Shown piece after piece: positions 13,227-59,843 of a DNA stretch of 64,000 bases. The notes beneath the pieces were generated by a model. The model saw only the letters and a program-made list of their open reading frames with translations, was not told the DNA's origin and did not search any database. Every line of letters begins with the position of its first letter. Positions within the stretch are counted from its first letter, which is position 1. The stretch is from a virus, in the IMG/VR virus record IMGVR_UViG_3300017991_000013, positions 1 through 64,000 of that record; one strand, given 5' to 3'. The position numbers were made by a program, and so were the translations under genes.

Positions 13227-13841
13227 TTGGCCAAGCTCCCCGAACCGAACCTGGTGCAGTACTGCACCTTCGTCAACCCCGACACGCAGGTCGCGTGCCG
13301 CAAGGTGGCGACGGAAGGGTACACTCGTTGCTGGGAGCACGGCGGCGGCAACTCCGCGTTCCGACGACCGTTGAACCCCGACGTCGCACCCGGCAAGGCG
13401 GACACGGTCAAGAAGCGTCGGGCGTCGCGCTACTCAGCGGCGTTCAAGAGCGAGACCCTGCGGACGCGGTTCGAGGAACTCCTCAATAACCCCGCCATGC
13501 TCGACCTGCGGGAAGAGCTGGCCCTCCAGCACATGATGATGGAGTCGGTGGCCGCGAAGGTGAAGGCCATCGACCTCGAGAAGATTCCGGCGGAAGCCAT
13601 CGCCCTAGTCAACCAGACCGTGGGCGAGATCAGTAAGACAACCGAAACGATAGCGAAGCTCGAAGGCAAGCTCCAGACGATCATCCGCATCGAAGACCTA
13701 CGCTCGTGGACCGACGAGGTGCTCAACATCGTCGTCAAGTACATTGACGACCCTGCGAAACTGGAGTCGCTTGCCATTGATCTTAACAACGCGAGAGTCC
13801 CCGCTTCTACCGGGAGGCGTCGAGAGCCGAGCCAGGACTGA
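13227..13841 (+). CDS. Terminase small subunit, 204 aa
   Basis: DNA-recognition subunit of the packaging motor. The N-terminus has the cysteine/histidine pattern C-x(9)-C-x(10)-C-x2-HGG (YCTFV...CRK...RCWEHGG, residues 13-40), which is seen in many phage TerS proteins. The remainder is helical, with a likely oligomerisation region (residues 85-160). It lies immediately upstream of TerL. It starts with TTG, the first start after an in-frame TGA at 13194, with a weak GAGGGA site. The end overlaps a possible longer form of TerL but not its preferred ATG. Confidence 0.72.
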   Translation: MAKLPEPNLVQYCTFVNPDTQVACRKVATEGYTRCWEHGGGNSAFRRPLNPDVAPGKADTVKKRRASRYSAAFKSETLRTRFEELLNNPAMLDLREELALQHMMMESVAAKVKAIDLEKIPAEAIALVNQTVGEISKTTETIAKLEGKLQTIIRIEDLRSWTDEVLNIVVKYIDDPAKLESLAIDLNNARVPASTGRRREPSQD

Positions 13842-13872
13842 GGCGTTCGACCAACTGGTAGAGGGATTGCGG

Positions 13873-15237
13873 ATGCGGGCCGACCCCGTTCGGCACCGCT
13901 GTGTCGCCAACGTCAACGACTTCGTTGAGTTCGTGGCGCGGGACGAAGAGGGGAACCGACTCAAGCAGGCGGGGCTGCACCGTCGCTTCCAAGCACACGC
14001 CAACAAGTATCGGTTCGCCGCGTTCGGCATGCCGCGCGAGCACGGCAAGACCTCACAGATCGTGGCGCGGATCGCGCACCGCATCGGGTGCAACCCCGAG
14101 AAGCGGTTCAAGCTGCTGTGCGCTGGAGACACCGCCGCGAAGAAACGCGTCAAGGCAATCATCCGTCTCATGCGGACGCCCGACTACCGACGCGTCTTCC
14201 CCGACATCCACATCGAGTCGAAGGGCGACACGGAACTGCTCGTGCGCCGCGAGAGCGGGAGCGTCGATCCCACGCTAGAGGGCTACGGCATCATGTCGTC
14301 GGTCACGGGCGGTCGGTGCGACGAGCTGTATCCCGACGACGTCGTCGACGCGAAGCAGATGAAGTCCAAGGTGTACCGCGAGTCGGTCAAGGAGCGGTTC
14401 TGGGACGACTGGATGAACCTGCTTACGCCGAACGGTCGCGTCGTCTACACCTACACGCCGTGGCACGTCAGTGATCTCAGTGCGGAGATCGAGGGCAAGC
14501 CGACGTGGCACGTGCTCAAGGTACCGGTGGAGCTGGACGCGGAGGGGCGGCCGCTCTCGGTGTGGGACGAGCGCTGGCCGACGCTCGCACTAGAGGAACG
14601 CGCCTCGGTCGTCGGCTCGTCGAGCTTCGCCCGCGGCTTCCGTCTGCTGCCCGTCAGTGACGAAGACATCGTCATCAAGGAAGAGTGGTGGACGTTCTAC
14701 GACCAGCTTCCCGAACGCGGCTCGCGACTGCTCGGCGTCGACCTCGCCATCAGTCAGAAGAACAGCGCGTGCTACCGCGTGTTCGTCTACGTGCTGGTCC
14801 ACGAGGGGATCGCCTACATCGTGGACGCGATCCGCGGCCGCTGGTCCTTCCCCGAACAGAAGAAGCGGCTCAAGGAATTCGGCAACCAGCACGGCGTGAC
14901 GCGCGCCTTCGTGGAGTCGGTCGCCTATCAGCAGGCGATGGCCGACGCCCTCAAGGAGGAGAGCGACGTCCGCTTCGGCGTGCAGTCCGTCTTCACCTCG
15001 ACCGACAAGTACACGAGGGCGAGTGAGCTGGCGGTGTACGTCGAGAACGCGCGCGTCCGTTTCCCCGCGGACCCCGCTCGACCCGGGCACCCGCTGCCGC
15101 GACTGCAGTGGCTGTACGACGAGATGAACGACTTCCCCTTCGGTGACTTCGACGACGGGATCGACGCTACCGGGTTCGCCGTGCTCGGTGCTTTCGGCTC
15201 TGCGAAGAACGAGCCACGAGTGAGGATGATCGCATGA
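13873..15237 (+). CDS. terL: Terminase large subunit (packaging ATPase-nuclease), 454 aa
   Basis: Motor that translocates and cuts concatemeric phage DNA into the prohead. From the chosen start, the Walker-A-like P-R-E-H-G-K-T lies near residue 55 and the acidic Walker B region is YPDDVVDAK near residue 155. The RNase-H-like nuclease half shows its acidic residues in LLGVDLAISQ, in AFVESVAYQQ and in DFDDGIDATGFAV near the C-terminus. ATG at 13873 with GAGGGA six bases upstream is preferred; the same frame extends upstream to a TTG at 13744, which would overlap TerS by 98 nt. It is followed by the portal with a 4-nt overlap. Confidence 0.92.
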   Translation: MRADPVRHRCVANVNDFVEFVARDEEGNRLKQAGLHRRFQAHANKYRFAAFGMPREHGKTSQIVARIAHRIGCNPEKRFKLLCAGDTAAKKRVKAIIRLMRTPDYRRVFPDIHIESKGDTELLVRRESGSVDPTLEGYGIMSSVTGGRCDELYPDDVVDAKQMKSKVYRESVKERFWDDWMNLLTPNGRVVYTYTPWHVSDLSAEIEGKPTWHVLKVPVELDAEGRPLSVWDERWPTLALEERASVVGSSSFARGFRLLPVSDEDIVIKEEWWTFYDQLPERGSRLLGVDLAISQKNSACYRVFVYVLVHEGIAYIVDAIRGRWSFPEQKKRLKEFGNQHGVTRAFVESVAYQQAMADALKEESDVRFGVQSVFTSTDKYTRASELAVYVENARVRFPADPARPGHPLPRLQWLYDEMNDFPFGDFDDGIDATGFAVLGAFGSAKNEPRVRMIA

Positions 15238-16532
15238 TTCAGTTACTGAAGCCGCTGCGACGCTTGTTCAAGGCGGACCCCGTCGGCCCGACGCCCCAGC
15301 AACCCGGGCGCGGTGGCGGAACGCGCGCGGTCACCGAGCAGGAGGCAGAGGCCGGCGGCAGCGTAGTCAACCAAGCGGTGTACACGAACCACGTCTGGGT
15401 CTACGCGTGTGCCAATCAGATCGCGTGGCGCCTCGCCGCTCTCCCGCCGAGGGTGATGCGGGAGAACGTCGCCGACCCCGACGCCGAGGACGTGCAGGTC
15501 TACGACTCGTGGGTCAACCGACTCATCACTCGGCCGAACGAAGAGGACTCGTGGTACGACGTGGTCGAGGCGACGCTGGAGTTCCTCGAACTGAACGGCG
15601 ACTCCTACTGGGAACTCGTCGGCGCGAACCCCGACCAGAAGGTGCCGCCGGTCAAGCTCTACGTTCTGCGGTCCGACCGCATGACGGTGATCCCGCACCC
15701 CGAGCGAAGGGTCGAGCGATACGAGTACTCGACGGGCAAGGGTGAGCCGACGCGCCTCGCCCCGTGGGAAGTGTTCCACGTCAAGTACTTCAACCCGATG
15801 TCAGAGCAGACGGGCCTCTCGCCGATCCAGCCAGCGTCGACCAACATCACGTTGGACTTCTACGCGATGGCGACGCAGTCTGACTTCTTCCGCAACGGCG
15901 CGCGGTTCGACGGCTACCTCAAGACGCCGACCACGCTGGGCGACGACACCTTCAAGCGGGTCAAGAGCGAGTGGAAGCAGCGGTACTCGGGCGTCGGTCG
16001 CGGGTTCAAGACGCCGCTCCTCGAGGGCGACGTCGACTACAAGCAGCTGTCCGCCACGCCCAAGGAGGCGGGGTTCAACGAGACACGCGCCGCGAACCGC
16101 GAGGACATCCTCGCCTCGCACGGCGTGCCGCCCGTGGTCGTCGGCATCCTCGACGGGTCGAGCTACGCGAACGCGTTCGCCCAGATGGCTGAGTTCTGGC
16201 AGGGCACGCTCGTCCCGAAGAACACCAAGTTCTACGAGAAGCTGAACCGCCTCGTCAAGTTCTACTCGCCCGACCTCTACGTCGAGCCCGACTACAGCGA
16301 GGTCCAGCACTTCCTCGAAGAGCGGGAGGTCGTCGTCGAGGAACGCAAGCTCGCCATCGAGGAGGCGAAGCTCGGGGCGCTCACGATCAACGAGTACCGC
16401 CAGCGGGTACACGGGCTCGACCCGGTGCCGTGGGGCAACACCTTCTTCATCAACGCGAGTCAGGTGCCGGTGGACGCCGTGGACATGGAGAAGATCGAAC
16501 GCGAGATGGAAGAGCGGGCACTAGAGGGCTAG
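15234..16532 (+). CDS. Portal protein, HK97 family, 432 aa
   Basis: Dodecameric ring at the special capsid vertex through which DNA enters and leaves. The sequence shows the family order: N-terminal VYTNHVWVYACANQIAWRLAALP, then W.NRLITRPNEEDSW, the LNGDSYWEL strand, the D-R-M-T-V-I-P segment, VFHVKYFNP with LSPIQPA, then DILASHGVPPVVVG and a long helical C-terminus with EREVVVEERKLAIEEAKLGALT. Length is typical. ATG at 15234 overlaps the TerL stop. The order TerL-portal-head morphogenesis protein is canonical. Confidence 0.92.
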   Translation: MIQLLKPLRRLFKADPVGPTPQQPGRGGGTRAVTEQEAEAGGSVVNQAVYTNHVWVYACANQIAWRLAALPPRVMRENVADPDAEDVQVYDSWVNRLITRPNEEDSWYDVVEATLEFLELNGDSYWELVGANPDQKVPPVKLYVLRSDRMTVIPHPERRVERYEYSTGKGEPTRLAPWEVFHVKYFNPMSEQTGLSPIQPASTNITLDFYAMATQSDFFRNGARFDGYLKTPTTLGDDTFKRVKSEWKQRYSGVGRGFKTPLLEGDVDYKQLSATPKEAGFNETRAANREDILASHGVPPVVVGILDGSSYANAFAQMAEFWQGTLVPKNTKFYEKLNRLVKFYSPDLYVEPDYSEVQHFLEEREVVVEERKLAIEEAKLGALTINEYRQRVHGLDPVPWGNTFFINASQVPVDAVDMEKIEREMEERALEG

Positions 16533-16535
16533 CAG

Positions 16536-18473
16536 TTGGCCAAGACGAAGACGCCGAGCCGAGCGACCCTGCTGCAAGAGTACCGCGACCAGCGGGCTCG
16601 GTTGCAGCACGAGGTCAAGCTCCGTGCGTGGGAGAAGGCCATCGAGCGTTCTGCCAAGCTCGCGTTGACGCGTCAGTACCGCGACCTCGAACGCAGCGGC
16701 CTGCTCCGTCGGTACTTCGACAAGGAGGGCCCGACGGCGAGGGCGCAACGGAAGGCCGCGCAGCCGTTCGAGCCCAACGAGGTGCGGTACCTCATCAAGG
16801 TGCTGGAGCGTAGCTTCCCGCGAGGGATCGCGCAGGACCTCGCCCTCTACAAGAAGAAGTTCGACGACATCGAGGACTTCCTCGACGACAAGGAGTCGTA
16901 CCTCGAGGCGTCGGGCAAACAGCTCACCTCGGCGTTCGAGGAGGCGGGGCAGTCGGCGCTGGATCAGGTCGAGGGCGGGCTACGCTTCGACGTGCTCAAC
17001 CGCGACGCGGTCGCCGCCGCCAAGAACATCCCGCTGCAGTACGCCAAGCGGGTGAGCGCGGGAACGAAGGCGATGGTTCGCCGCGGGCTGGCGCAGGCGC
17101 TCAAGAACGGCGAGGGCCTCGACCAGGTGACCGAACGAATGCGCCGCATCTTCCAGGTCCCGAAGGACCAGACGTGGAGGGCGCAGCGGATCGCTCGGAC
17201 CGAGACCAACAAGGTGGTGAACCTCGGGACGCTGCAGGGCTACCAGCAGTCCAACGTGGTGCGGTCGAAGCGCTGGCTCGCGGGGTTCAACGCCCGCGAC
17301 GCGCACGCCGCCGCTCGCGGCCAGACGGTCCCGCTCAACGAGCCCTTCATCGTGGGCGGCGAGCCGCTGATGTACCCGGGCGACCCGTCCGGCTCTGCGG
17401 GCAACATCATCAACTGCCGCTGTACGATGACGCCGGTCGTGGATCGCCGAGCGTCGCGGACACCTCGCACCGAGCAGGCGTTCTCGGAAGCCAACGAGAA
17501 GGTCGCCCAGCAGTTGATCAAGGAGAACCCGGTCAAGTTCAGCGGCGCCACGGTCCGCGCTTACAACAAGGCGATGGACGCGCTCGCGGCGGGGAAGTAC
17601 AAGGGGTCCCTCTTCCGCGGGGCGAGCAACAAGATGCGGAAGAACTACGAGGCGGGGCTCGACAAGAAGCTGATCTCGGAGCTGGGCCTCTCGAAGAAGG
17701 AGGCGAAGAAGTTCCGCGAGTACTTCCAGAGCGACGTGCTCGGTGACTGGTACGGGTCGTCCGACGGGGAGGGCGCGGCGGCCATGAAGGACTGGGCGCG
17801 GCGCCGCTTCAAGCGGTCGAAGGTCTACTACCACGGACGCGTGCTCAAGAAGTCATCGTCCATCGCGGTAGACGCGGACGAGTTGTACTCGAACCTCGCG
17901 GACGAGATGGAAGACTTCGCGGATCGTTTCCTCGAAGCGTCGGCGCAGGCGAACCTGCGTACCGCGAAGAAGGCCACCGACGCCATGCTCGACTACACCT
18001 ACGCGCACCAGCAGCAACTCATGGAGCGGGCGAAGGTGGGAACGATGTCGGCGTACCGCGGGGTAGGGAACAACTTCTTCACCAAGCGCGGGCTACGGAC
18101 TCCGAAGACCGGGGCGGTGGCTCGCGTCGGGGAGAACAACCTCTCCTCGTGGTCGACCGCGCTCGACGAGGCCGAGGGCTTCGGCGACGTCATCATGCGA
18201 CGAGAGGTTGCGCCGCGCGAGGTGTTCATGGACGCGGGCAGCGGGAACGCCTACACGAAGCGGGCGGGCGACACCTTCCTGCACGAGCGCGAGCTGGTGA
18301 CGCTGACCGACGGGCCGCGCCGCCTGCAGGTCGCGGACGTGGACTTCTTCGAGACGCGCAAGGCTTCTGGACCCAGTCTCAAGGCGCTCAACACCGAGCT
18401 GGCCGAGAGAGATAAGGTGGACTTCGTTATGCCCCTCACCCAATCTGAGGCAGACTACTTGAGGAAGCGGTGA
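16536..18473 (+). CDS. Head morphogenesis protein (SPP1 gp7-like) fused to an ADP-ribosyltransferase, 645 aa
   Basis: Residues about 1-300 are a phage minor head protein: RAQRIARTETNKVVNLGTL near residue 219, a RDAH histidine, then YPGDPSGSAGNIINCRC near residue 285, the C-terminal signature of gp7-like proteins. Residues about 480-620 look like an R-S-E ADP-ribosyltransferase: R508 in AYRG, the S-S-W-S-T stretch at 537-541, and E584-R-E586 in LHERELVTL, the ExE pair. Known members of that fold transfer ADP-ribose from NAD+. A middle helical linker joins the two. The start is TTG at 16536, directly after the portal gene. A capsid-carried, possibly injected, effector is the inference. Confidence 0.82.
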   Translation: MAKTKTPSRATLLQEYRDQRARLQHEVKLRAWEKAIERSAKLALTRQYRDLERSGLLRRYFDKEGPTARAQRKAAQPFEPNEVRYLIKVLERSFPRGIAQDLALYKKKFDDIEDFLDDKESYLEASGKQLTSAFEEAGQSALDQVEGGLRFDVLNRDAVAAAKNIPLQYAKRVSAGTKAMVRRGLAQALKNGEGLDQVTERMRRIFQVPKDQTWRAQRIARTETNKVVNLGTLQGYQQSNVVRSKRWLAGFNARDAHAAARGQTVPLNEPFIVGGEPLMYPGDPSGSAGNIINCRCTMTPVVDRRASRTPRTEQAFSEANEKVAQQLIKENPVKFSGATVRAYNKAMDALAAGKYKGSLFRGASNKMRKNYEAGLDKKLISELGLSKKEAKKFREYFQSDVLGDWYGSSDGEGAAAMKDWARRRFKRSKVYYHGRVLKKSSSIAVDADELYSNLADEMEDFADRFLEASAQANLRTAKKATDAMLDYTYAHQQQLMERAKVGTMSAYRGVGNNFFTKRGLRTPKTGAVARVGENNLSSWSTALDEAEGFGDVIMRREVAPREVFMDAGSGNAYTKRAGDTFLHERELVTLTDGPRRLQVADVDFFETRKASGPSLKALNTELAERDKVDFVMPLTQSEADYLRKR

Positions 18474-18474
18474 C

Positions 18475-21162
18475 ATGAAGCTCGAAGACCTGACCGCCTC
18501 GAACGTCGCGGACCTACCGACCGACGAGATCGTGTCCCTCCATCACCGCACCCACCAGCTGTGGAACCGGATGCGGTCGCCGGAGCAACGGCAGCTGTTG
18601 ACCGACGCACACCGCTGGCTGGTCGAACAGATGGAGGCACGCGGGATCAAGCACACCTCCCCGCTCGGTAAGAAGGCACCCGGCTACTACGAGTCGATGA
18701 TGGTGCTGCGGCGCGACGGCGTCGTGCAGATGGGTGCCCTGATCGAGCGCGTCCCGATGGGGCGGGTGCTCGACCTCGGCGCGGGGATCGGGACCGCGGC
18801 TCGCGTGCTGGCGAACAGCGGGCGAGAGGTCGTGTGCCTCGACCAGTCGCGGGAGGCGGTGCTCCGCTGCGGGGAGCTGGGGCTGGAGGCGGTGCAGGAC
18901 GACGCGCTGGAATACCTCGCGCGGCAAGACGACGACTCCTTCGACTGCGTCTACTCGCTCCACTTCTTGGAGCACCACGAGGCGCCGGACGCCGTGCTCG
19001 AAGAGTGCGCTCGGGTCGCCAAGCAGTGCACGCTCCACGTGGTGCCGCTGGGCGAGCGGGGCGACGAGAGCCACAAGCAGAAGTGGAAGAGCATGGTCGA
19101 CTTCTCCGCGGCGATCCGCTCGGTGCCCTACGCCAAGAGTTACAAGTCCCTCGTGGACGAGACCCTGCTGGTCGAGGTGCACAAGGACCTGCCGGACTTC
19201 ATGGAGCGGCTGGGCGACGCGACCGTGGTCAAGAACTTCGTGTCGGTCGTCGGCGGTACCGCCACGCGCTACGACCCGATGTCAGACCTCGACGTGTTGA
19301 TCCGCCAGTCGTCAAGGGACGAGGCGCTCGAACTCGTCGTGCGGAACCAGCTCACCCAAGAGGCGCAGGACAAGCTGCACTTCATCTATCACGCCTCGGG
19401 ACCGCACGGAGACAGCGTGCCGCTCTACGACCTCGTGCTGCGGCCGGCGGATCGTCTCGCGCTGGAGCGCGTGGACAAGGCGTTCGCGCCGATCACTCGC
19501 TTCCAGCCCGCCAAGCCCGGGCCGAGCTTCCTCATCGTCGACAAGGACGCCGACGACGTGAAGGCGCTGCTCGGCGCGTGGGCCGGCAAGCCGCTGGGCA
19601 AGGACCGAGAGATCGCGGTCGAGCGGAAGTACAACGGCTGGCGCGGCGTCGTGCAGTTCGATGGCAAGCGCGGGTCGGTGTTCTTCGAGGGCAACAAGCG
19701 CGAACGCATCCAGCAGTTCCCCGACCTGCTCGCGGACCTCAAGGCTATCGGCGAACCGATGATCCTCGACGTGGACTTCGGCGCGGTCGGCACCGACGGC
19801 AAGCCGCTCCCGCGGATCGCCCTCAGTCAGTTCGCGTCGTTCAACAAGAAGTTCGGTCTCAAGTTCGACACGCCCGCGGGTCCCGCCACGCTCAAGGTCA
19901 CGGGGTTCGATGTGCCCTACTTCAAGGAGGACCTGAGCGGCAAGCCCTACCACGAGCGCCGCGCCATTCTCAAGAAGGTGCTGACGTCGTCGGACCTGCG
20001 CGTGCTCGCACCGAGCGAGGGACGCGTGGTCAAGAACCCCGACGCCTTCGTGGCCGCGGTCAAGACGATGGCCGCGAGACCCGGGAGCGAGGGCGTCGTG
20101 GTGAAGAAGGTCAACGCGTCTTACCCCGCCGGCGGCTCGACGTCCGACTGGATGAAGGCCAAGAACGCCGCGGGTCTGAACATGGAAGTCATGCGCGTCA
20201 AGAAGGCGGGCGACGCCTACTCGCACACCGTCGGGCTGAAGGCCGAGGGCGGTGACCTGGTCGAGGTCGGCGGCACGATGAACCACGGGACCCGGTTCGC
20301 TCCGGGCGCGGTGGTCAAGGTCGACGTCGAGGAACTCATCCCGCTGTGGAGCGCGAAGCAGAACCGGTGGGAGGCGAGCATCGTCGTCGGCATCATCCGA
20401 GACCGCACCGAAGCGAAGAGCGCGGACTCGATGGGCACCGCGATCAAGAAGGCCGAGGGCGCGAACGTCTTGCAAGCGGGCCCGCCGATGCGGAAGCTCC
20501 TGCGCGAAGCGAAGCTGGTCAAGCAACGCGAGGAGGCGGACGACGACGAGGGCGGCTCGGGCGCGGAGGGTAACCTCGACTTCAAGGTCGGCGACTCGGG
20601 GAGCGGCGTGCTCCAGCTCCACGAGATGGGTCTCTCGGAAGAGGAAGCGAAGGAAGGGAAGAGCGGGACGTGGTCTGCCCACACCGACTTCCGACTGCGG
20701 CGCGGCGACGACGACTACTGGGAGGGCGGCGAGTTCTTCACTCCGGGCAACAACCACAAGAAGTCGAAGCTCCTCCAAGACGGCGCCCGCATCCTCATGA
20801 ACTTCAAGGTGCCGAAGAAGGAGGGCCGCTCCGGCAAGGGTCCCTTCGTCGTGCACGGTCCGCTCGGCTGGCTCAAGGTCGGCGCGCAGGGACCGAAGCT
20901 CTTGTCACCGGGGACGCCGGGCGCGTACCCCGAGACGTGGTCCCGCATTACCAAGCTCGCCTCGATCAAGTGGAAGGCTGGCACGCAGGACGAACACTAC
21001 AAGGAGTTCATGTTCGAGTTCGACGGGGACCTCAAGGGTCGTAGTGGGCGCTGGGTATTCGCGTTCGCCCCGTTGGGAGACAGCCGCAAGTGGATTGCGT
21101 TCCGACCCGCCGAGCAACGGATGGACGCGGAACGCAAGAAGGGCGAGCTGGTGGAATTCTAG
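18475..21162 (+). CDS. Methyltransferase / nucleotidyltransferase / ligase-like fusion protein, 895 aa
   Basis: Residues about 90-215 are a class I SAM methyltransferase (VLDLGAGIGTAARVL at 98, FDCVYSLHFLEHHE). Residues about 250-345 resemble a Pol-beta-type nucleotidyltransferase: G260-G-T followed by S-D271-L-D273. Residues about 350-640 resemble an ATP-dependent ligase: K385-Y-N-G-W-R replaces the usual KxDGxR, LDVDFG stands for motif III, E539-G-V-V-V-K is motif IV and DWMKAKN is motif V. The C-terminal part has SAHTDFRLRR and EGGEFFTPG, weakly like a LigD 3'-phosphoesterase. It lies between the minor head protein and the protease. Whether the N-for-D change destroys ligase activity is unknown. 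Confidence 0.75.
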   Translation: MKLEDLTASNVADLPTDEIVSLHHRTHQLWNRMRSPEQRQLLTDAHRWLVEQMEARGIKHTSPLGKKAPGYYESMMVLRRDGVVQMGALIERVPMGRVLDLGAGIGTAARVLANSGREVVCLDQSREAVLRCGELGLEAVQDDALEYLARQDDDSFDCVYSLHFLEHHEAPDAVLEECARVAKQCTLHVVPLGERGDESHKQKWKSMVDFSAAIRSVPYAKSYKSLVDETLLVEVHKDLPDFMERLGDATVVKNFVSVVGGTATRYDPMSDLDVLIRQSSRDEALELVVRNQLTQEAQDKLHFIYHASGPHGDSVPLYDLVLRPADRLALERVDKAFAPITRFQPAKPGPSFLIVDKDADDVKALLGAWAGKPLGKDREIAVERKYNGWRGVVQFDGKRGSVFFEGNKRERIQQFPDLLADLKAIGEPMILDVDFGAVGTDGKPLPRIALSQFASFNKKFGLKFDTPAGPATLKVTGFDVPYFKEDLSGKPYHERRAILKKVLTSSDLRVLAPSEGRVVKNPDAFVAAVKTMAARPGSEGVVVKKVNASYPAGGSTSDWMKAKNAAGLNMEVMRVKKAGDAYSHTVGLKAEGGDLVEVGGTMNHGTRFAPGAVVKVDVEELIPLWSAKQNRWEASIVVGIIRDRTEAKSADSMGTAIKKAEGANVLQAGPPMRKLLREAKLVKQREEADDDEGGSGAEGNLDFKVGDSGSGVLQLHEMGLSEEEAKEGKSGTWSAHTDFRLRRGDDDYWEGGEFFTPGNNHKKSKLLQDGARILMNFKVPKKEGRSGKGPFVVHGPLGWLKVGAQGPKLLSPGTPGAYPETWSRITKLASIKWKAGTQDEHYKEFMFEFDGDLKGRSGRWVFAFAPLGDSRKWIAFRPAEQRMDAERKKGELVEF

Positions 21163-21208: not shown

Positions 21209-21583
21209 GTGAAGTTCAGACAGTTCTTAACCAAGAACGAGGAGAAGCGGCTGGTGTACGGGATCGTGTACGAGCCCTACTCCGTGGACACTCAGGGAGA
21301 CTACGCCTCCGACGACGAGATCGAGAAGGCCTGCCACAAGTTCATGGAGAACTGGCAGAAGGTCGGGCTCATGCACCAGCGAGACATGCCCGACATCAAG
21401 GTCGTCGAGTGCTACGTCGCCCCGACCAACTTCCGCCTCAACGGGGAAGAGATCAAGAAGGGGTCGTGGGTGCTCGCGGTGAAGGTCTACAACGACACGA
21501 TCTGGGAGATGGTCAAGAAGGGAGAGCTGACGGGGTTCTCTCTCCAGGGCTACGGTAGAGAGAAAGAAAAGGATAAGGAGTAA
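21209..21583 (+). CDS. Prohead protease, XkdF-like, 124 aa
   Basis: Maturation protease that cleaves scaffold and capsid delta regions. It matches the short phage serine protease of the XkdF type: GIVYEPYSVDTQGDY, then GLMHQRD with H56, a strand pair VVECYVAPTNF, GSWVLAVKVYND, and the end LTGFSLQGYG, where S111 is the likely nucleophile in GFS-x-x-G. GTG at 21209 follows GAGGACGAGGAGG. Its position just before the acidic scaffold-like gene and major capsid protein supports the role. Confidence 0.78.
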   Translation: MKFRQFLTKNEEKRLVYGIVYEPYSVDTQGDYASDDEIEKACHKFMENWQKVGLMHQRDMPDIKVVECYVAPTNFRLNGEEIKKGSWVLAVKVYNDTIWEMVKKGELTGFSLQGYGREKEKDKE

Positions 21584-22202: not shown

Positions 22203-23450
22203 ATGACGAAGAAGGAATTCTTGGAGCGGCTGGCCGCGCTCGAAAAGAAGGGCGGCGAGTTCACCACGCTCATGGACGACGTCCGCGCGACGCTGTCCAA
22301 GCGCAAGACCGGCTACACCGAGGGCGGCATGACTCCGAGTGAGGAAATCCTTCTCACCAAGTCCGCCGACCCCGAGGTGCTCAAGGCCCAGGAACAGAAC
22401 GACGACCTGTACCTTCTCTCGAAGGTCATGGGCGTCAGCCCCAAGGCGACTCAGCTGTACCGCAAGTACATGGGCGGCGAGCTGGGCAAGGCGATGGCCG
22501 CCGCGACCGCAGGGTCCGGCGCGGAGTGGGTGCCGACCGGGTTCAGCAACAAGCTGATCGACCTGGTGCGGCTCCAGCTCAAGGTCGCGGCTCTCTTCAC
22601 CGAGATTCCGCAGCCGACCAACCCCTACAAGGTGCCGGTCGTCGCGAGCGACGCCACCGCGTACCTGATCGCGGAGTCCACCAGCGACACGGCGGACAAG
22701 ATCACCGCGTCGACCCCGGGCACCACCGACCTCACCCTCACCGCGAAGAAGCTCGCCGCGCGCGTGCTCTTCTCGGAAGAGGTGAGCGAGGACAGCATCA
22801 TCCCGGTGCTCCCGTTCGTGAAGACGAACGTGGCGCGGGCGCTGGGCGACGGGCTCGAAACCGCCATCATCAATGGCGACACGAACGCCACGCACATGGA
22901 CTCCGACGTGACCAACGCGAAGGATGTCCGCAAGGCCTACGAGGGACTGCGCTACCTGGCCCTCAACATCAGCGGAGTGCAGGTCGACTGCTCGACCTTC
23001 AACCTGACGAACGTCAGGGCGATCCGCAAGGCCATGGGGAAGTACGGCGTCGACCCGAGCAAGCTCGCGTGGATCGCCGGCCCCAAGGTCTGGAACAAGA
23101 TGCTCGGTCTCGACGAGGTCACCACGGTCGAGAAGTACGGGCCGAAGGCAACCATCCTCACGGGTGAGCTGGGCAAGCTCGACGGTATCTCCATCATCGT
23201 CAGCGAGCACGCTCGCGAGGACCTGAACAACGCCGGCGTCTACGACGGCACCACGACCACCGACGCGGTCCTGCTCCTGGTCAACCGCGACAGCTTCATG
23301 CTCGGTGATCGGCGGAAGATCACCACGAAGACGCAGGAGGACATCGAGACCGACCAGATGATCCTGGTCAGCACCCAGCGCAAGTCGTTCAAGCGGGTGT
23401 ACGCCACGACCCAGCCGTTCGTGGCCTGCGGCTACAACATCACCGCGTAG
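22203..23450 (+). CDS. Major capsid protein, HK97 fold, 415 aa
   Basis: Main shell subunit. A helical N-terminal 100 residues (likely the delta/scaffold-like part) lead to AGSGAEWVPTGFSNKLIDLVRLQ, then an E-loop-like stretch, NPYKVPVVASDATAYLIAES, and LTAKKLAARVLFSEEVSEDS, a typical HK97-type order (P-domain strands and spine helix). FVKTNVARALGDGLETAIINGD follows, and the A-domain end is DGISIIVSEH. ATG at 22203 follows AGAAGGAGAAACACGGA, a strong binding site suited to high expression. It is followed by a GC-rich hairpin and the first glycosyltransferase. Confidence 0.88.
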   Translation: MTKKEFLERLAALEKKGGEFTTLMDDVRATLSKRKTGYTEGGMTPSEEILLTKSADPEVLKAQEQNDDLYLLSKVMGVSPKATQLYRKYMGGELGKAMAAATAGSGAEWVPTGFSNKLIDLVRLQLKVAALFTEIPQPTNPYKVPVVASDATAYLIAESTSDTADKITASTPGTTDLTLTAKKLAARVLFSEEVSEDSIIPVLPFVKTNVARALGDGLETAIINGDTNATHMDSDVTNAKDVRKAYEGLRYLALNISGVQVDCSTFNLTNVRAIRKAMGKYGVDPSKLAWIAGPKVWNKMLGLDEVTTVEKYGPKATILTGELGKLDGISIIVSEHAREDLNNAGVYDGTTTTDAVLLLVNRDSFMLGDRRKITTKTQEDIETDQMILVSTQRKSFKRVYATTQPFVACGYNITA

Positions 23451-23522: not shown

Positions 23523-24128
23523 ATGCTGGTTGGTTGCGTCATCTATTACGAGGACTGTCTTGACCTCTTGGAGAGGTGCTTCACCTCTCTACGAGCCCGG
23601 GTCGATAGACTCGTGGCCGTGGATGGGGCATACGAGAGCTTCCCGCACGACCTACCGTGGTCGAGCGAAGCGCACCTCCAAGTGGCCAAGCGATACGCGG
23701 ACGTTCTCTGGTCGACCGGCGTACCGTGGGCCGACGAGATCGAGAAGCGGAACTCGTACCTGGAGCACTGCGATCCGGGCGACTGGGTGCTGGTGCTCGA
23801 CGCCGACGAAGAGCTGCACGGCAGACTGCCGGTGCTCGACGAGGCGCAGGTCGGTTACAACGTCACACTCCATCAGGACTGGCTGCAACCCAGACCTGTG
23901 TTCAGGTTCTTCCGCATGTCGGAAGGGCTGCACTATCGCGGAGCGCACAACGCCCTGTTCGATGCCGAGGGTCGGCTGCTGAACCACGAGGTCACCGAGA
24001 CCTTGCCGAACCTCAACATCGAGCACCACGCGTGGAAACGCCCCGCGGAACGAGTGAGCGCGAAGGGCATCTACGTGAGGGCCCTCGCGGAACGAGAGCG
24101 CGCGTTTCGAGAGGAGTACAAGCTGTGA
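23523..24128 (+). CDS. Glycosyltransferase, GT-A/family 2-like, 201 aa
   Basis: Transfers a sugar from a nucleotide donor. The N-terminal VGCVIYYEDCLDLLERCFTS is like the first strand-helix of GT2 enzymes. VDRLVAVDGAYESF is the second strand, and the metal/nucleotide motif is VLVLDADEELHG near residue 96, followed by a short acceptor part with LHYRGAHNAL. At 201 aa it is a minimal catalytic domain. ATG at 23523 with GGAGCGAAC upstream is preferred to a TTG at 23457. It lies directly after the capsid gene, which suggests a capsid-related acceptor (inference). Confidence 0.78.
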   Translation: MLVGCVIYYEDCLDLLERCFTSLRARVDRLVAVDGAYESFPHDLPWSSEAHLQVAKRYADVLWSTGVPWADEIEKRNSYLEHCDPGDWVLVLDADEELHGRLPVLDEAQVGYNVTLHQDWLQPRPVFRFFRMSEGLHYRGAHNALFDAEGRLLNHEVTETLPNLNIEHHAWKRPAERVSAKGIYVRALAERERAFREEYKL

Positions 24129-26554
24129 AGTGGATCGAAGAATTGTCGGGCAAGACCTACAAGTCTGGCGACTACGAGATTCAAGGCGGGAAGGCCGAGC
24201 GGGTCTCTGACGAGGAGGCGTTGCGTCTGCTCTCTGACTTCCCGGGTCGGTTCAGACTCACGAAGGAAGACGCGGGTCTGGCAAAGCAGGCGGCGGCACT
24301 CGTGGGAGGTGTGCCGCACGCGCCGGCCGAACCGATTCACCTGATCGAGAAGGTGGACATCATCATCCCGATCATCGGGCCGCTGGAGCCCCTGTTCCAG
24401 CTGTTGGACTCGATACCCGCGGTCATGCGACACAACGTGGTCGTGGTCAACAACAGCGGGCAAAGCTCGAAGGGTGTTCGGGCTGAGTTCCCCGAGGTCC
24501 GCTTCTTGGACAACGAGTGTAACCTCGGGTGGATCGGTGGGCTCCAGCAGGGCTTGCGGCACTGCGCGAACCCCTACGTCGTCTTCATGAACTCGGACCT
24601 CGCCCTGCCCGAGAAGGCCGACGAGATGTTCCACGACATGGTCTCGACGCTGGAGACGAACGAGAAGGCGGCGACCGTGTCCTCGCTGCGATGGGAAGGC
24701 GGCACCGACTCGACGATGAAGGAGGCCGCCAAGAAGATTCGGGAGCTGGGCAAGTTCGTGAACCTCAAGCCCTCGACCGAACCCGCGATCGTGCAGCAGA
24801 TCAACGACGAGATTCAGAAGGCGGTCGGCAAGCGGCGGGTCTTCGAGACGAAGAAGGACGTCGTGCTCTTCTGCGTCATGCTCAAGCGGGCGGCGTACGA
24901 GGAGGTCGGCGGCTTCAACGAAATCTACGGGCTCGGCTACGTGGACGACGCAGACCTGACGCGCCGCCTGCGGAACAAGGGCTGGCGGCACTTCGTGCTG
25001 GCGAGCTGGGCGATCAACCACTTCAACAACACCTACGGCTTCAAGGACGTGCTCGGCAAGGGGTTCTGGGCCTACCACAAGAAGAACCGCGAGGTCTACA
25101 ACCACTACTGGGACTCGATCCCGCAACTGCCGGTGCTCTACGTTACCTGGAACCGACTCGACTACACGAAGAAGACGCTGCCGCCGCTGCTCAAGGACCC
25201 CGACGTCTGGCTCGTCGTCGCCATCGACAACGCGTCGACGGACGGCACGCAGGAGTACCTGCGGAAGATGGAGCGCGAGTACCCCGACAAGCTGCGGGTC
25301 GTGTTGAACGAACACAACCAGCGGGTCGCCGGAGCCATGAACCAGTTCTTCGACATGGTCGAGCCGATGCGGTACTGGGCCAAGGTCGACAACGACACGC
25401 TCTTGAAGAAGGGCGACCTCAAGAAGTTGCTGGACCTCTTGAAGCAGAACAGCGCCGACCTGCTCCAAGCCCAGAACCAAACCTTCCGAGCGGAGAACAA
25501 CCTCGTGGTCAAGGGACACCTCGGCGGCACCGCGCTCGTCGGGAAGACATTCAAGCAGCGGGTACCCGTAACAAATCAGGTCCTCGGCTGGACTCAGTTC
25601 CAGCGGGGAGGCGAGGGCCGGAACCTCAAGAAGCTGGTCACCAATCTCGTGTCCGTCGAACTGCTCGACCACGACGAGGAAGGCAACAAGATCGACGACG
25701 AGAAGTACCCGCGCTACAACAAGCTGATCTCGATGGCCCGCGGCTACGAGAGCACGCCGTTGAACCGAGTCGCGGTCGCGGTACCGAAGGGTCGGCCGAA
25801 GCTCTTGCACGTCATGTGCGCGTACAACGAAGAGCACCGCTACCTCGAGGCGGTCATCCGCGACACGAGGGAGCACGCCGACAGGGTGATCGTGATCGAC
25901 GACGCGAGCAACGACAAGACCGCCGACGTGGCGCGGTCGCTGGGCGCGGAGGTTGTCCGCAACGAGAAGAACCTCTCGGGACAGAGCGAGACCGCGCTGC
26001 GGTCGAAGATGTGGGAGGTCGTGCGCGGCGTTCGACCCGAGTGGGTGCTGACCCTCGACGCCGACGAGCTGTTCGAGCCCGGGTCGTGGGAGACGCTGGA
26101 GAAGCTGATGGCGGGGTCGCCCGAGGAGTTCGCGGCGTACCGCTTCTACATTCTCCACATGTGGAAGGACACGCAGCACGTTCGCGTCGACAAGGCGTGG
26201 GGCGGCTACAACAACATCCGGCTGGTGCGCTACTCTGACCGAGCGGGGCAGGCCGAGAAGAACAAGCGGTGGCACTCGGGCGGCGTTCCGCTGGAGTACC
26301 AAGGGCAAGCGATCCTTGCCAAGCCGAAGATTCTTCACCTCGGCTTCGTGCGAGAGCGGGACCGCGTCGAGAAGTACCTCAAGCACATGCAGCGCGGCGG
26401 GGCCGAGGGCGATGGGATCGACGTCGAACATCTAATCTCAATCCTCGACGACAACCCGGAACTCCACGAGTGGACTCGCGGACTCCCCCAGCGGGTCGAA
26501 CCGGTCGGCCCTCGCCGCGCCATTCAACTAAACTGGGAGCCGAGCAATGGCTAG
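24125..26554 (+). CDS. Triple-domain glycosyltransferase, 809 aa
   Basis: Contains three GT-A-like domains in a row. Domain 1 (about residues 75-325): VDIIIPIIGPLEPLFQLL, NSGQ, NLGWIGGLQQGL and the D-x-D-like MNSDLALPEK. Domain 2 (about 335-540): LPVLYVTWNRLDYTKKTLP, IDNASTDGTQEY, KVDNDTLL. Domain 3 (about 555-800): LLHVMCAYNEEHRYLEAV, IDDASNDKTADVARSLGA, LTLDADELFEPGSWE. An N-terminal 70-residue part is of unknown function. GTG at 24125 overlaps the preceding gene by 4 nt and the 3' end overlaps the connector by 8 nt, so it is embedded in the head operon. Probably builds an oligosaccharide. Confidence 0.82.
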   Translation: MKWIEELSGKTYKSGDYEIQGGKAERVSDEEALRLLSDFPGRFRLTKEDAGLAKQAAALVGGVPHAPAEPIHLIEKVDIIIPIIGPLEPLFQLLDSIPAVMRHNVVVVNNSGQSSKGVRAEFPEVRFLDNECNLGWIGGLQQGLRHCANPYVVFMNSDLALPEKADEMFHDMVSTLETNEKAATVSSLRWEGGTDSTMKEAAKKIRELGKFVNLKPSTEPAIVQQINDEIQKAVGKRRVFETKKDVVLFCVMLKRAAYEEVGGFNEIYGLGYVDDADLTRRLRNKGWRHFVLASWAINHFNNTYGFKDVLGKGFWAYHKKNREVYNHYWDSIPQLPVLYVTWNRLDYTKKTLPPLLKDPDVWLVVAIDNASTDGTQEYLRKMEREYPDKLRVVLNEHNQRVAGAMNQFFDMVEPMRYWAKVDNDTLLKKGDLKKLLDLLKQNSADLLQAQNQTFRAENNLVVKGHLGGTALVGKTFKQRVPVTNQVLGWTQFQRGGEGRNLKKLVTNLVSVELLDHDEEGNKIDDEKYPRYNKLISMARGYESTPLNRVAVAVPKGRPKLLHVMCAYNEEHRYLEAVIRDTREHADRVIVIDDASNDKTADVARSLGAEVVRNEKNLSGQSETALRSKMWEVVRGVRPEWVLTLDADELFEPGSWETLEKLMAGSPEEFAAYRFYILHMWKDTQHVRVDKAWGGYNNIRLVRYSDRAGQAEKNKRWHSGGVPLEYQGQAILAKPKILHLGFVRERDRVEKYLKHMQRGGAEGDGIDVEHLISILDDNPELHEWTRGLPQRVEPVGPRRAIQLNWEPSNG

Positions 26555-54253: not shown

Positions 54254-57088
54254 ATGAGTTCTCCCAAGGACCTAGATGTACGCAAGCTGCTCGATCACTT
54301 CGGGATCGAGTACGAGGAACGTGGCGACGGCGAGCTACGTGTGCTGTGCGCGTTCCACGCGGACGAGAACCCGTCGTGTCAGATCAACGTAGAGAAGAAG
54401 GCGTTCTTCTGTTACACCTGCGAGGCGAAGGGCGACGTCATCAACTACATCGCTGGCCGCATGAACACGACGCGGCCGACGATAATCAAGGAGCTAGAAC
54501 TAGAGGGCTGGGTCGGTCGGTTCATCTCGCAGAAGATGGTCGAGAAGTGGCACCAAGCTCTGCTCAAGACACAGCCCTACCTCGAGGCACTCAAGAAGAA
54601 GGGCATCAGTAAAGAGACCATCGACCGCTACTCGCTCGGCGTCAACCGACAGCGGATCACGATCCCGATCTACGACGACGCCAAGAACATCGTCAATGTA
54701 CGGCAGTACTCACCGAACCCGAAGGACGCTCGCCACAAGGTAATCAACTACAAGGGCTTCGGTGGTCGGCGGCTCTACCCGTACGAGGCTTTGGCGGACC
54801 AGGAAATCTGGATCACCGAGGGCGAGTTGAAGGCCCTGCTGTTGCGCGAGCGTGGGTTCAACGCCATGTGTGCGACGGGTGGAGCTGGCACGTGGGCGAT
54901 GGAGTGGAACGATCTCTTCGCCAAGAAGGACGTCGTCCTCTGCTACGACATCGACGACGCGGGGATCAAGGGCGCGAACCGAGTGGCGCGGTGTCTATAC
55001 CCGACCGCCAAGTCCGTGACCCTCGTGGTGCTGCCGATAGACCGCAAGGAGTTCCCGAAGGGCGACGTAACCGACTGGCTCGTCGACCTCAATCACACCG
55101 CCGAAGACCTGCGCGAACTACAGGGCAACTCGCAGCAGTGGTCGCCCGCACTCTTCCGCCGAGAGAACGAGGAGGAAGAGGACGAAGAGGTGACCCCGGT
55201 TCACCTGTCCCAGTCGTCGCTGGCGAAGTGGCATGGCAAGCGGGTCGAGACCGAGGCGCTGGTCTCCGCGAAGGACACCGCGCCCTACATCATCCCCGCC
55301 GAGATCGAGGTCGTGTGCCAGCGGGACAGCGGCAACATCTGTCTGGTCTGCCCCGTGGCTGGGTTCGAACCCGGGGAGACCTTGAAGATCGGTCCGACGA
55401 ATCCAGTGGTCCTCGAACTCGTCGGCATCTCAACCGACCAGCAGGAGCGAGCCATGAAGAAGGCCGCCGGCGTTCCGCGTTCCTGCTCGCAGTGTATCTT
55501 CAAGGCCAAGAAGTCGATGAACATCGAAGAGCTTCGACTGATCCCACAACTCAAGATCGCCACGCAGGAAACAGACCACGTGGTGCGGCGAGCGTTCTAC
55601 GTCGGCCACGGGATCGAGACCAACACCGCGTACATGCTTCGCTCCAAGGTGATCCCCGAACCACAGTCGCAGTACGCGACGTTGCTGACCTACGAGGCGG
55701 AAGCGTCGGTGGACTCGTTGTCGACCTTCAAGCTGACCCGCGAACTCAAGACGAAGCTCAAGCTGTTCCAGCCAAAGGAGTGGACGCTCACAGGGTTGCG
55801 GGTCAAGCTCGACCAAATCTACGAGGACCTCGAAGCGAACGTGACCCACATCTACATGCGGCGAGACCTCCACGTGTTCTACGATCTCGTCTACCACTCG
55901 GTCCTCTACATCCGGTTCCAAGGTCAGCCGATCAAGGGCTGGGTCGAGGGGCTCGTGGTGGGCGACAGCGGGCAGGGAAAGTCCGAGGCCATCAAGCACC
56001 TCATGAACCACTACGGCCTCGGTGAGAAGATCGACGCGAAGGGCGCGAGCGTAGCGGGACTGCTCGGCGGGCTGCAAGAGACAGCCAAGCGGTGGTTCGT
56101 GTCGTGGGGTGTCATCACCCTCAACGACCGACGACTCGTGGTGCTCGAAGAAATCAAGGGCATGCACCAAGAGGTCATCGCCAAGCTAACCGACATGCGG
56201 TCCAGCGGGATCGCAGAGGTGAGCAAGGTAGAGAAGGCAAAGACGAACGCCCGCACTCGACTCGTCTGGATCAGTAACCCGAGGTCCGACGATCAGGTGA
56301 TGTCGTACAACTTCGGGATCACCGCGGTCCGCGAACTGATCGGTTCGCTCGAAGACGTACGCCGCTTCGACATGGCCATCATGTTGGCCAGCGGTGAGGT
56401 CGACCGCAAGGTCCTCAACCTCCGAACGGGTGATCGACCCACGGCAGAGCACACGTACACCCACGAGTTGTGTCAATCGCTGGTGCTGTGGACGTGGAGC
56501 CGGAAGCTCGAAGACGTGCAGCTTACCGAGGAGGCGGAGGAACTGCTGCTCAAGGAATCGAGCCGCATGGGGAAGGAGTACTCCGCCACGATCCCGCTCG
56601 TGGAAGCGGCGGACCAGCGGCTCAAGCTGTTGCGGCTCTCGGCAGCGTGCGCGGCGCGGACCTTCTCCACGGAGGACGGGCAGACATTGCTGGTTCGGAA
56701 GTGCCACGTCGAGTACGTGGTGGAGTTCCTCGACCGAATCTACGACAGCCCCGCCATGGGTTACCGAGACTACTCGAAGAACCTCGCGGGCGAGAAGCAA
56801 CTGCGGGACGCCGATCAGGTCGAGGCGATCCTCAACGAGTTGCCGCACCAGAAGGACGCGATCCAATCCATGCTCGAAGCACCGGGCATGACCGCGACCG
56901 ACATGATGGACTGGGCGGAGATGGACAAGGATACCGCGCGAGAGTTTATCGGCGGCTTGGTCCGCAAGAACGCGTTGAAGCGTGGCCGTCGGTACTACGT
57001 GAAGACGCCGGCGTTCATCGCCATGCTCCGACGAATCTCTAACAACGGGGAACTATCCAACGAGGCCCCAGCGGAGGTAGAGTTCTAA
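54254..57088 (+). CDS. Toprim primase fused to MCM-like AAA+ helicase, 944 aa
   Basis: Replicative primase-helicase. The CHC2-type zinc site is C32, H35, C53, C56. The Toprim catalytic residues are E189-G-E191 in WITEGELKAL and D232-I-D-D in CYDIDDAG. The middle has an OB-like region with cysteine pairs (VVCQRDSGNICLVCPV; CSQC). The motor is AAA+/MCM-like: Walker A GDSGQGKSE at 570-578, Walker B LVVLEEIKG near 630, sensor TRLVWISNPR, and EDVRRFDMAIML with the arginine finger. The C-terminus is a winged-helix-like ATDMMDWAEMDKD...VRKNAL. ATG at 54254. Confidence 0.85.
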   Translation: MSSPKDLDVRKLLDHFGIEYEERGDGELRVLCAFHADENPSCQINVEKKAFFCYTCEAKGDVINYIAGRMNTTRPTIIKELELEGWVGRFISQKMVEKWHQALLKTQPYLEALKKKGISKETIDRYSLGVNRQRITIPIYDDAKNIVNVRQYSPNPKDARHKVINYKGFGGRRLYPYEALADQEIWITEGELKALLLRERGFNAMCATGGAGTWAMEWNDLFAKKDVVLCYDIDDAGIKGANRVARCLYPTAKSVTLVVLPIDRKEFPKGDVTDWLVDLNHTAEDLRELQGNSQQWSPALFRRENEEEEDEEVTPVHLSQSSLAKWHGKRVETEALVSAKDTAPYIIPAEIEVVCQRDSGNICLVCPVAGFEPGETLKIGPTNPVVLELVGISTDQQERAMKKAAGVPRSCSQCIFKAKKSMNIEELRLIPQLKIATQETDHVVRRAFYVGHGIETNTAYMLRSKVIPEPQSQYATLLTYEAEASVDSLSTFKLTRELKTKLKLFQPKEWTLTGLRVKLDQIYEDLEANVTHIYMRRDLHVFYDLVYHSVLYIRFQGQPIKGWVEGLVVGDSGQGKSEAIKHLMNHYGLGEKIDAKGASVAGLLGGLQETAKRWFVSWGVITLNDRRLVVLEEIKGMHQEVIAKLTDMRSSGIAEVSKVEKAKTNARTRLVWISNPRSDDQVMSYNFGITAVRELIGSLEDVRRFDMAIMLASGEVDRKVLNLRTGDRPTAEHTYTHELCQSLVLWTWSRKLEDVQLTEEAEELLLKESSRMGKEYSATIPLVEAADQRLKLLRLSAACAARTFSTEDGQTLLVRKCHVEYVVEFLDRIYDSPAMGYRDYSKNLAGEKQLRDADQVEAILNELPHQKDAIQSMLEAPGMTATDMMDWAEMDKDTAREFIGGLVRKNALKRGRRYYVKTPAFIAMLRRISNNGELSNEAPAEVEF

Positions 57089-58134: not shown

Positions 58135-59038
58135 GCGGATCGCGGTACTGGGGATGTCGTTCCCCGCTCGGGTGGTCGGGCGAGAGCTAGAACTCGAAGG
58201 CCACGAGGTGATCTACTACGGGGACGACCGAGGCACTGGTCAGTTCAAGCGACACGGTCCGCGATACCTCTGGCTCTGCAACGACGTGCGACTCTTCTTT
58301 GGACCCTACGTGAAGCTGATCCCTCAGCGGGTCGAGGTCAAGTGGTGGAACGGTCACGAGGTCACGACGCGCCACACGCTCGAAGAGGTCTACGCCTACA
58401 ACGTGAAGACCCGCGGGCGTCAACGACCGCACGCGCCCTGCGAGGGACAGACGAACTTCCTGTCGGTGCTCGGTGGCTGGAACCTACTGGACAGCAGACT
58501 CAAGCCGCGCAAGTCAAAGGGCTTTGCCATCGCCATCTTCCCCACGGAGATTGGCTGGCGCGTGGTCAACGAGGGCAAGAAGGCGGAGGCGGTCGACGGC
58601 ATCGTGACCTCGCTCCACTATCAGGTCTTCGGGAAGCTGACGCAGTACTACCGCGCCGACTTCCCGAGGGTGGGGACACGACCGATCAAGGTCTACTATC
58701 ACTACGCGAGAGAGCACACGCCCGACATGGGCTTGCCGCTGCTCAACGCGAACATGCTGGTGTACTCGGGTCGAGAAGAGGACCCGTGGTTTCGCTGGAG
58801 CTACGACGGCGAGGTCTACATCTTGGAGAGCCGAGAGAGGTTGCCCGGCAACTGGGACCTCGTGGAGAGTTCGGTCTCCAAGATACTCGACGCGACGAGC
58901 GACCTGTACTACCCCGAGGGTGTCTTCCCCGTCGGTCGGTGGGCAGAGGGCAAAGAGGACCTGCTGGTCCACGAGGTGATCGAGAGGAGAGAGAAGTATG
59001 TCGAGCAGGTGGAACGAGGCCTGGGCTTACCAGCGTAG
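58124..59038 (+). CDS. Rossmann-fold oxidoreductase-like protein, 304 aa
   Basis: The start KRIAVLGMSFPARVVGRELE and LEGHEVIYYGDD has the beta-alpha-beta dinucleotide-binding pattern, though with a substituted glycine motif (G-M-S-F-P-A). FLSVLGGWNLLDS and IAIFPTEIGWRVVNEGKK follow, and the end is helical. It could be a UDP-sugar mutase or amino-oxidase relative working with the glycosyltransferase upstream. The altered loop makes cofactor use uncertain. ATG at 58124 with GGGAGATACCGG upstream. Confidence 0.5.
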   Translation: MSGKRIAVLGMSFPARVVGRELELEGHEVIYYGDDRGTGQFKRHGPRYLWLCNDVRLFFGPYVKLIPQRVEVKWWNGHEVTTRHTLEEVYAYNVKTRGRQRPHAPCEGQTNFLSVLGGWNLLDSRLKPRKSKGFAIAIFPTEIGWRVVNEGKKAEAVDGIVTSLHYQVFGKLTQYYRADFPRVGTRPIKVYYHYAREHTPDMGLPLLNANMLVYSGREEDPWFRWSYDGEVYILESRERLPGNWDLVESSVSKILDATSDLYYPEGVFPVGRWAEGKEDLLVHEVIERREKYVEQVERGLGLPA

Positions 59039-59843
59039 GTTCATGCAGTCGGAGGTCGAGCGGATCGGCCGACTGCCGCTGAACGAAGCGCACCGACGAC
59101 TCTGCTTGCACCTCACCTCTGAGGTCGCGGAGCTACTCGACTGCGTGGACTGGAAACTGCACGCGAGGGAGAAGCCGCCCGACCACTACGCGGTGATCGA
59201 AGAGTGCGTGGACGTCTGGAAGTTTCTGATGGACGTGCTCTACATCCACAACGTCACCGACGACGAGTTCCTCGATGTCTTCGAGCAGAAGTCTGTCGTG
59301 GTCGAGAACCGCATGGCCATCGAGCGCCTCAAGAAGTTGTACGACGGGAGCTTTCAGACCCCGTTGTTCATCTCGGACCTCGACGGCGTGCTCGCGGACC
59401 GCGACGAGTCGATGCTCGCCTATGTCAACGATCGGTTCGTGCGCGACTTCAAGTCGGTCGACGAGATGCGACAGACCATCTCGGCCAACGAGTACCACGA
59501 GATGAAGGACGACTGGTACGAGAGCGGCGGGTTCGAGAAGGTCGAGGTGATCGAAGAGCAGGCCGCGATCTTCCGCGAGGCCCCGGGCTTGCGAATGATC
59601 TGTACCTCGCGGGACGTAGACCGCTACCCGCAGTTAGCGTACCAGACAATCGAGTGGGTGAAGACCCACTTCGGCAACGCGATCACCGGCGTGGTGTTCG
59701 CGAAGGAGAAGGACAAGGCGTTGTGGTGGGTGCCGCGAGAGGGCACCGTGGCAGTGGACGACGAGGAAGACCTCTCGCGTGTCTGCACCTATTACCGCAG
59801 CTGGACAGAGGAGGTACTACATGCCACCGAACAGCAAGGTTGA
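58998..59843 (+). CDS. dUTPase/MazG-like NTP-pyrophosphatase fused to a HAD phosphatase, 281 aa
   Basis: Residues 1-110 are an all-alpha NTP pyrophosphatase: LTSEVAELLD (E..E) and HYAVIEECVDVWKFLMDVLY (E-E-x-x-D), the pattern of dimeric dUTPases and MazG-like enzymes that hydrolyse (d)NTP to (d)NMP. Residues about 122-275 are a HAD phosphatase: D127-L-D129-G-V, a motif II-like T in MICTSRDV, and VAVDDEEDLSR. Together they could convert dUTP or another NTP to nucleoside plus phosphate. ATG overlaps the preceding gene by 41 nt. Confidence 0.75.
   Translation: MSSRWNEAWAYQRRFMQSEVERIGRLPLNEAHRRLCLHLTSEVAELLDCVDWKLHAREKPPDHYAVIEECVDVWKFLMDVLYIHNVTDDEFLDVFEQKSVVVENRMAIERLKKLYDGSFQTPLFISDLDGVLADRDESMLAYVNDRFVRDFKSVDEMRQTISANEYHEMKDDWYESGGFEKVEVIEEQAAIFREAPGLRMICTSRDVDRYPQLAYQTIEWVKTHFGNAITGVVFAKEKDKALWWVPREGTVAVDDEEDLSRVCTYYRSWTEEVLHATEQQG

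Follow-up and report, generated by a model that had tools for sequence, protein, structure and literature searches.

Bacterial LigD carries a ligase core and a 3′-phosphoesterase (PE) in a single chain, and the same pairing is predicted in a viral protein of 895 residues encoded at positions 18475–21162 (+ strand) of the DNA studied here. This DNA, the window, is a stretch of 64,000 nucleotides that forms part of a 69,916-base IMG/VR virus record, and the protein comprises a methyltransferase (MTase), a putative nucleotidyltransferase (NTase), a ligase-like core and probably a LigD-type PE domain. However, it differs from LigD in that a Pol-beta-type NTase motif stands in place of the AEP primase-polymerase, the gene lies in the capsid module, and its family includes protease fusions. 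No AEP domain is found among the Pfam or NCBIfam matches of the protein, and no Ku was found either; for these two reasons, we do not class it as LigD. The "ATP-dependent DNA ligase" AJP62006.1 of ANMV-1 (KP703175) shares the NTase–ligase–OB order, a PE-like C-terminus and a gene position directly after the portal, whereas it is without the MTase, has a canonical KKFDG motif and is known from annotation alone.

The polyvalent proteins and head-fused effectors surveyed previously (PMC5512222, PMC9503650) are also comparable, being large multidomain proteins that are coded with head genes, swap domains, and show both MuF–ADP-ribosyltransferase (ART) neighbours and capsid-protease fusions. The window protein is likewise a multidomain product of the structural module with domain shuffling, as in polyvalent and injected head effectors, yet no description of the NTase–ligase–PE core was found in the polyvalent-protein survey (PMC5512222), in PMC9503650 or in the other literature searched. 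That 2017 survey stated that 2H domains are never seen with RNA ligases (PMC5512222); in contrast, one relative reported here, L063, fuses 2H to the ligase. The PHROGs clusters 1530 (DNA methyltransferase plus S78_2) and 14859 (RNA ligase plus S78_2) join an MTase or ligase annotation to the same head protease, so the theme of an enzyme joined to S78_2 is already known; compared by annotation, however, these are two-part proteins of about 375 residues. We therefore place the family, so far undescribed, as a fresh variation on the head-linked effectors, and we do not class the window copy as a standard DNA ligase.

A head-module family with a common core

The window protein and its relatives form a family of head-module proteins that possess an NTase–ligase(OB)–LigD-type PE core, occur as protease fusions and exchange accessory domains for end healing or methylation. 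Searches of IMG/VR with the single protein returned no relatives, and an alignment of two sequences run against genome contigs fared no better. Among the phage collection, the sole clear relative was that of ANMV-1, a virus of methane-oxidising archaea (26% identity over 438 residues covering NTase, ligase and OB), whose gene directly follows the portal; alignment-based scans added further archaeal copies, which neighbour portal genes wherever these fall on the contig. With a degenerate DNA pattern built on ligase motif IV (PGSEGVVxK), matches were obtained at 35 IMG/VR loci, and at 27 of these (24 distinct) the encoded protein is recognised by the family hidden Markov model (HMM) at E < 1e-20. 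This pattern picks one motif variant, and the counts of relatives are not prevalences. Since the pattern carries no information on context, the gene context of the relatives is independent evidence. Most matches in archaeal genomes were set aside, as they cover the ligase core alone and look like chromosomal ligases, and L004 (faecal scaffold MT839701) was rejected because it resembles bacterial DNA that encodes an ordinary ligase.

The tailed viruses that carry the relatives, archaeal ones among them, encode them between portal or MuF genes and protease or capsid genes. A portal gene is found upstream of the ligase gene in L053, L059, L063, L066, L074, L079, L080 and L081, and a capsid protein gene downstream in L053, L057, L064, L067, L079 and L086. 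In L074, MuF separates the portal from the ligase, and in L059, L063 and L082 MuF proteins come before the ligase. The window-like order from the terminase large subunit (TerL) through portal and MuF to ligase recurs in L074 and L104, and the L063 record shows the full order TerL–portal–MuF–ligase–capsid.

A Pfam census of 32 members found DNA_ligase_A_M in all 32, Peptidase_S78_2 in the same open reading frame (ORF) in six, a metallo-beta-lactamase (MBL) domain in four, a C5 methylase in three, D12 MTase, PNK3P and LigD_N in two each, and 2H in one; the 2H domain belongs to L063, and L053 is among those with PNK3P. Weak RNA_ligase matches occur in four members. When fuller records were searched with seeds taken from the protease alone, S78_2 was found to form the very C-terminal end of nine ORFs (G393, L057, L064, L067, L079 and L086, plus the records of L055, L063 and L066), and these fusions are spread over several branches of an approximate tree. 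The "LIG+protease" labels obtained by a two-round seed extension were discarded because fusions had contaminated the seeds.

The closest relative, G393, is encoded by a record of 53,959 bases with a 114-base end overlap, which is therefore circular, and its ligase-family gene crosses the origin. The G393 protein, of 1090 residues, is 39% identical to the window protein in the N-terminal helical domain, 33% in the NTase, and 30% over 588 residues (1e-52) in the ligase–PE part, and it ends in a fused S78_2 protease. The two proteins group together in the approximate tree with a support of 0.98. The MTase of G393 follows the NTase, whereas that of the window precedes it. A common family for the two MTases is weakly supported, by a BLAST match of 2e-5 over 87 residues that phmmer did not recover.

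Some minor observations concern the relatives themselves. ANMV-1 AJP62005.1 (L001, 1913–3193), annotated as a "MutT-like phage hydrolase", matches Phage_portal_3 at 3e-22 and is the portal. Intein or LAGLIDADG homing-endonuclease domains occur within or beside ligase-family genes in L060, L062, L078, L052 and L086. The archaeal virus relative L046 (4611–8234) has an N-terminal metallo-beta-lactamase domain, while a separate ORF that follows it encodes the phosphoesterase domain; contigs of one and the same length, 24,094 bases, occur in IMG/VR and in an archaeal genome bin.

Domains and catalytic residues of the window protein

The initial annotation, made from the sequence alone, described an 895-residue ORF between a MuF minor head protein and a prohead protease and read it as a fusion of a SAM methyltransferase, a Pol-beta-like NTase, a ligase-like core and a weak LigD-PE-like C-terminus. 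The ORF and the Pfam assignments of its neighbours bear out the locus, and all of the claimed motifs (G-G...D-L-D, K385-Y-N-G-W-R, EGVVVK and WMKAKN) are present.

The C-terminal PE-like domain spans residues about 705–880 (20587–21114, +). The window C-terminus alone gives no Pfam match and an hhalign probability of 0.4%. At the family level, however, two relatives that align with it match LigD_N (PF13298; 2e-6 and 3e-4), and the family profile matches the LigD PE with an hhalign probability of 95.6% (E 1.2e-8), with controls below 1%. Residues H716, H736, D738 and R740 of the window protein align with the H..H.D.R signature of the family, which in LigD takes the form HWASRLHYDFR. As judged from these alignments, the LigD-PE identity appears right for the family and likely for the window copy, so this part of the earlier description holds more firmly for the former than for the latter.

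The ATP-dependent ligase adenylation core occupies residues 378–563 (19606–20163, +), where DNA_ligase_A_M matches at 3.2e-16, above its curated cut-off. An AlphaFold model of residues 234–895, built from 27 sequences (mean predicted local distance difference test score, pLDDT, 75), superimposes its ligase and OB part on human LIG1 with Z 24.2 and a root-mean-square deviation (rmsd) of 3.6 over 307 residues, which substantiates the ligase call; it also matches T4, LigD and archaeal ligases. The match reaches model residue 435, i.e., about residue 668, consistent with an OB domain at residues about 566–650 (20170–20424, +). By sequence and fold alike, the best matches of the core are DNA ligases. 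The VIA-align and Foldseek listings of the model contain only ligases and say little on the other domains. A model of the whole protein from seven sequences was discarded (pLDDT 38), and the top BFVD match, A0A516LT18, was not used, as its 687 aligned columns came with an rmsd of 23.5 and no name.

The catalytic residues of this core are altered in part. Motif IV EGxxxK (EGVVVK at 539–544, with E539 and K544) and motif V KxK (K561 and K563) are intact, as is K385 of motif I. However, the Asp of KxDG is replaced by Asn (N387), so that motif I reads K385-Y-N-G-W-R, and the Glu of motif III is replaced by D434. The KYNG form is found in both the window protein and G393, whereas the relatives have KKYDG or KKFDG where motif I aligns; at motif III, G393 has Ser and all other members have Glu. 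In the structure of a DNA ligase, the acidic residues of motifs I and III hold, via water, a metal used for sealing (PMC6698739). From K385 and the intact motifs IV and V, the ligase of the window lineage probably still self-adenylates, and with the two acidic metal-contact positions changed, it probably seals differently or poorly. The Asn common to the window protein and G393 suggests selection rather than random decay.

The NTase region comprises residues about 253–323 (19231–19443, +), with D271, D273 and D319. It contains the motif hG[GS]...Dx[DE] as G260-G261...D271-L-D273, whose Gly and DxD residues do not vary across 16 aligned sequences, and it aligns with ANMV-1 within the 438-residue match (E 4e-24). 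In the AlphaFold model, the region forms a strand-helix-strand (beta-alpha-beta) core whose second strand bears the DxD. The nearest score to a known-NTase profile among the relatives is DNA_pol_B_palm in L079, at E 0.06 only. Profile searches returned no PDB NTase and a significant match to a known-NTase profile did not emerge, so the Pol-beta assignment is based on the motif, its conservation and the topology of the model.

Upstream of the NTase lie a helical domain at residues 1–64 (18475–18666, +), which is 39% identical over 66 residues to the G393 protein and more loosely resembles L020, L046, L010 and L014, and a class I SAM methyltransferase at residues about 92–228 (18748–19158, +). 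The latter call agrees with the match of Methyltransf_11 at residues 99–184 (2.6e-13, above its curated cut-off) and of Methyltransf_23 (3.7e-9). Motif IV of the amino-DNA methyltransferases (N6A/N4C), [DNS]PP[FYW], is absent from residues 65–240.

Proposed entry with the head protease and alternative explanations

The reading that we favour, with a probability of roughly one half, is that the protein is a LigD-like polyprotein for end healing and sealing that enters the procapsid together with the head protease. It would do so with the protease or as part of it; proteolysis would then free the enzyme, which would travel with the genome. In the new cell, 3′ ends of the incoming DNA (or RNA) would be cleaned, a nucleotide added and the breaks sealed, and the methyltransferase would mark a substrate. 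Where an enzyme is joined to MuF, portal or the capsid serine peptidase, specialists regard it as packaged and injected (PMC9503650). There is also precedent for the need, as in mycobacteriophage Corndog end joining and a phage Ku appear to serve for genome circularisation at entry (PMC4351075). The likeness to an end-repair enzyme, already proposed in the initial annotation, gains at the family level from synteny, the protease fusions and the swapped domains for 3′-end healing and DNA methylation. For the window copy itself, ordinary sealing is uncertain given the Asp-to-Asn change in KxDG and the Glu-to-Asp change in motif III.

Several observations weigh against this reading. In the window, the S78_2 protease gene has its own ribosome-binding site and is unfused. 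The loss of the motif III Glu together with KYNG makes ordinary sealing by the window copy doubtful, and the NTase has no significant Pfam or PDB sequence or profile match of its own. Neither the 64-kb window nor any fetched locus yielded a Ku gene, although the host may have one; Corndog end joining, in contrast, depends on Ku. Moreover, in Corndog the genes of a methyltransferase (a late-operon product) and of glycosyltransferases lie between portal and protease, and none of these enzymes was detected in virions (PMC4351075). Gene position, earlier taken as a ground for packaging, is thus by itself weak evidence, and the accompanying suggestion of action on DNA ends during packaging found no support.

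The same Corndog enzymes favour the view that the protein is an ordinary cytoplasmic repair or DNA-modification enzyme, merely co-transcribed with the head genes, as does the separate protease gene of the window. However, nine head-protease fusions in several branches, a position conserved across archaeal and other viruses, and a canonical ligase already owned by the virus all speak against it, and we consider this view improbable. Somewhat better placed, though still unlikely, is the repair or marking of RNA (tRNA) against host anticodon nucleases, in which RNA ends would be healed, sealed and methylated as by T4 Pnkp/Rnl or bacterial Pnkp/Hen1. The 2H domain of L063, the PNK3P of L053, the weak RNA_ligase matches in four members and a window MTase that is not of the amino-DNA type would all suit this explanation. 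On the other hand, the ligase core is closest to DNA ligases in sequence and fold, the LigD PE works on 3′ ends of DNA, and relatives carry C5 and D12 DNA methylases; furthermore, Pfam finds no polynucleotide kinase-phosphatase domain in the window protein, PNK3P being present only in relatives such as L053. As to the substrate, the ligase and the LigD-type PE would point to DNA, while the 2H and PNK3P of relatives may fit RNA as well.

The explanation to which we give the least weight takes the ligase-like domain of the window lineage as an adenylyl carrier or binding scaffold, which would pass AMP to a protein or small molecule as an injected effector beside the MuF-ART protein. This would account for the KYNG and the loss of the motif III Glu common to the window and G393, for an MTase of this general type in both members of that lineage, and for the adjoining MuF-ART gene, but the ligase Lys, the motif IV and V residues and the PE motif residues are all retained.

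Returning to entry of an end-healing enzyme with the head protease, a broader and more tentative proposal is that many tailed archaeal and bacterial viruses load and inject a Ku-independent, one-chain LigD-like end-joining machine, made as one polyprotein with the capsid protease, to heal, seal and mark the genome as it comes in, and that in the window lineage the ligase core has turned to a new nucleotidyl transfer coupled to methylation. If the favoured reading is true, virions that bring along enzymes for healing and sealing ends would represent a new viral means of protecting or circularising genomes at entry, before gene expression. Because of the repeated protease fusion, proteomics on any member in culture would test packaging directly, and the order portal–MuF–ligase–protease offers a search handle for a family that databases label just "DNA ligase" or "hypothetical".

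Neighbouring genes and other features of the window

The 895-residue ORF begins with ATG, immediately after the stop codon of the gene before it, and its GC content by codon position (0.67/0.42/0.91) is the same as in the adjoining genes. The gene order of this region, with every gene given by position on the + strand, is TerL (13744–15237; phrog_38, 1.1e-72), portal (15234–16532; Phage_portal, 3.4e-64), a MuF minor head protein fused to a DRAT-type ART (16536–18473; Phage_Mu_F 7.9e-13, DRAT 4.7e-11), the 895-residue gene, the XkdF-type S78_2 head maturation protease (21209–21583; Peptidase_S78_2, 4.1e-36), a small gene and the major capsid protein (22203–23450; Phage_capsid, 2e-14). The MuF-ART protein is itself likely to be injected as an effector. 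A separate canonical ATP-dependent DNA ligase with KLDG and DGEL motifs is encoded at 264–1175 (+; DNA_ligase_A_C, 4.5e-12), so the 895-residue fusion is not needed as the only ligase of this virus.

Elsewhere in the window, a single ORF with three glycosyltransferase-2 stretches directly follows the capsid gene (23657–26554) and is overlapped by a long antisense ORF. A DnaG zinc ribbon, a Toprim domain and an MCM-like P-loop are joined in one protein at 54254–57088, an unusual primase-helicase combination. At 58998–60747, dUTPase_2 and an NT5C nucleotidase lie within a single ORF beside a ThyX gene, suggesting a reshaped pyrimidine metabolism.
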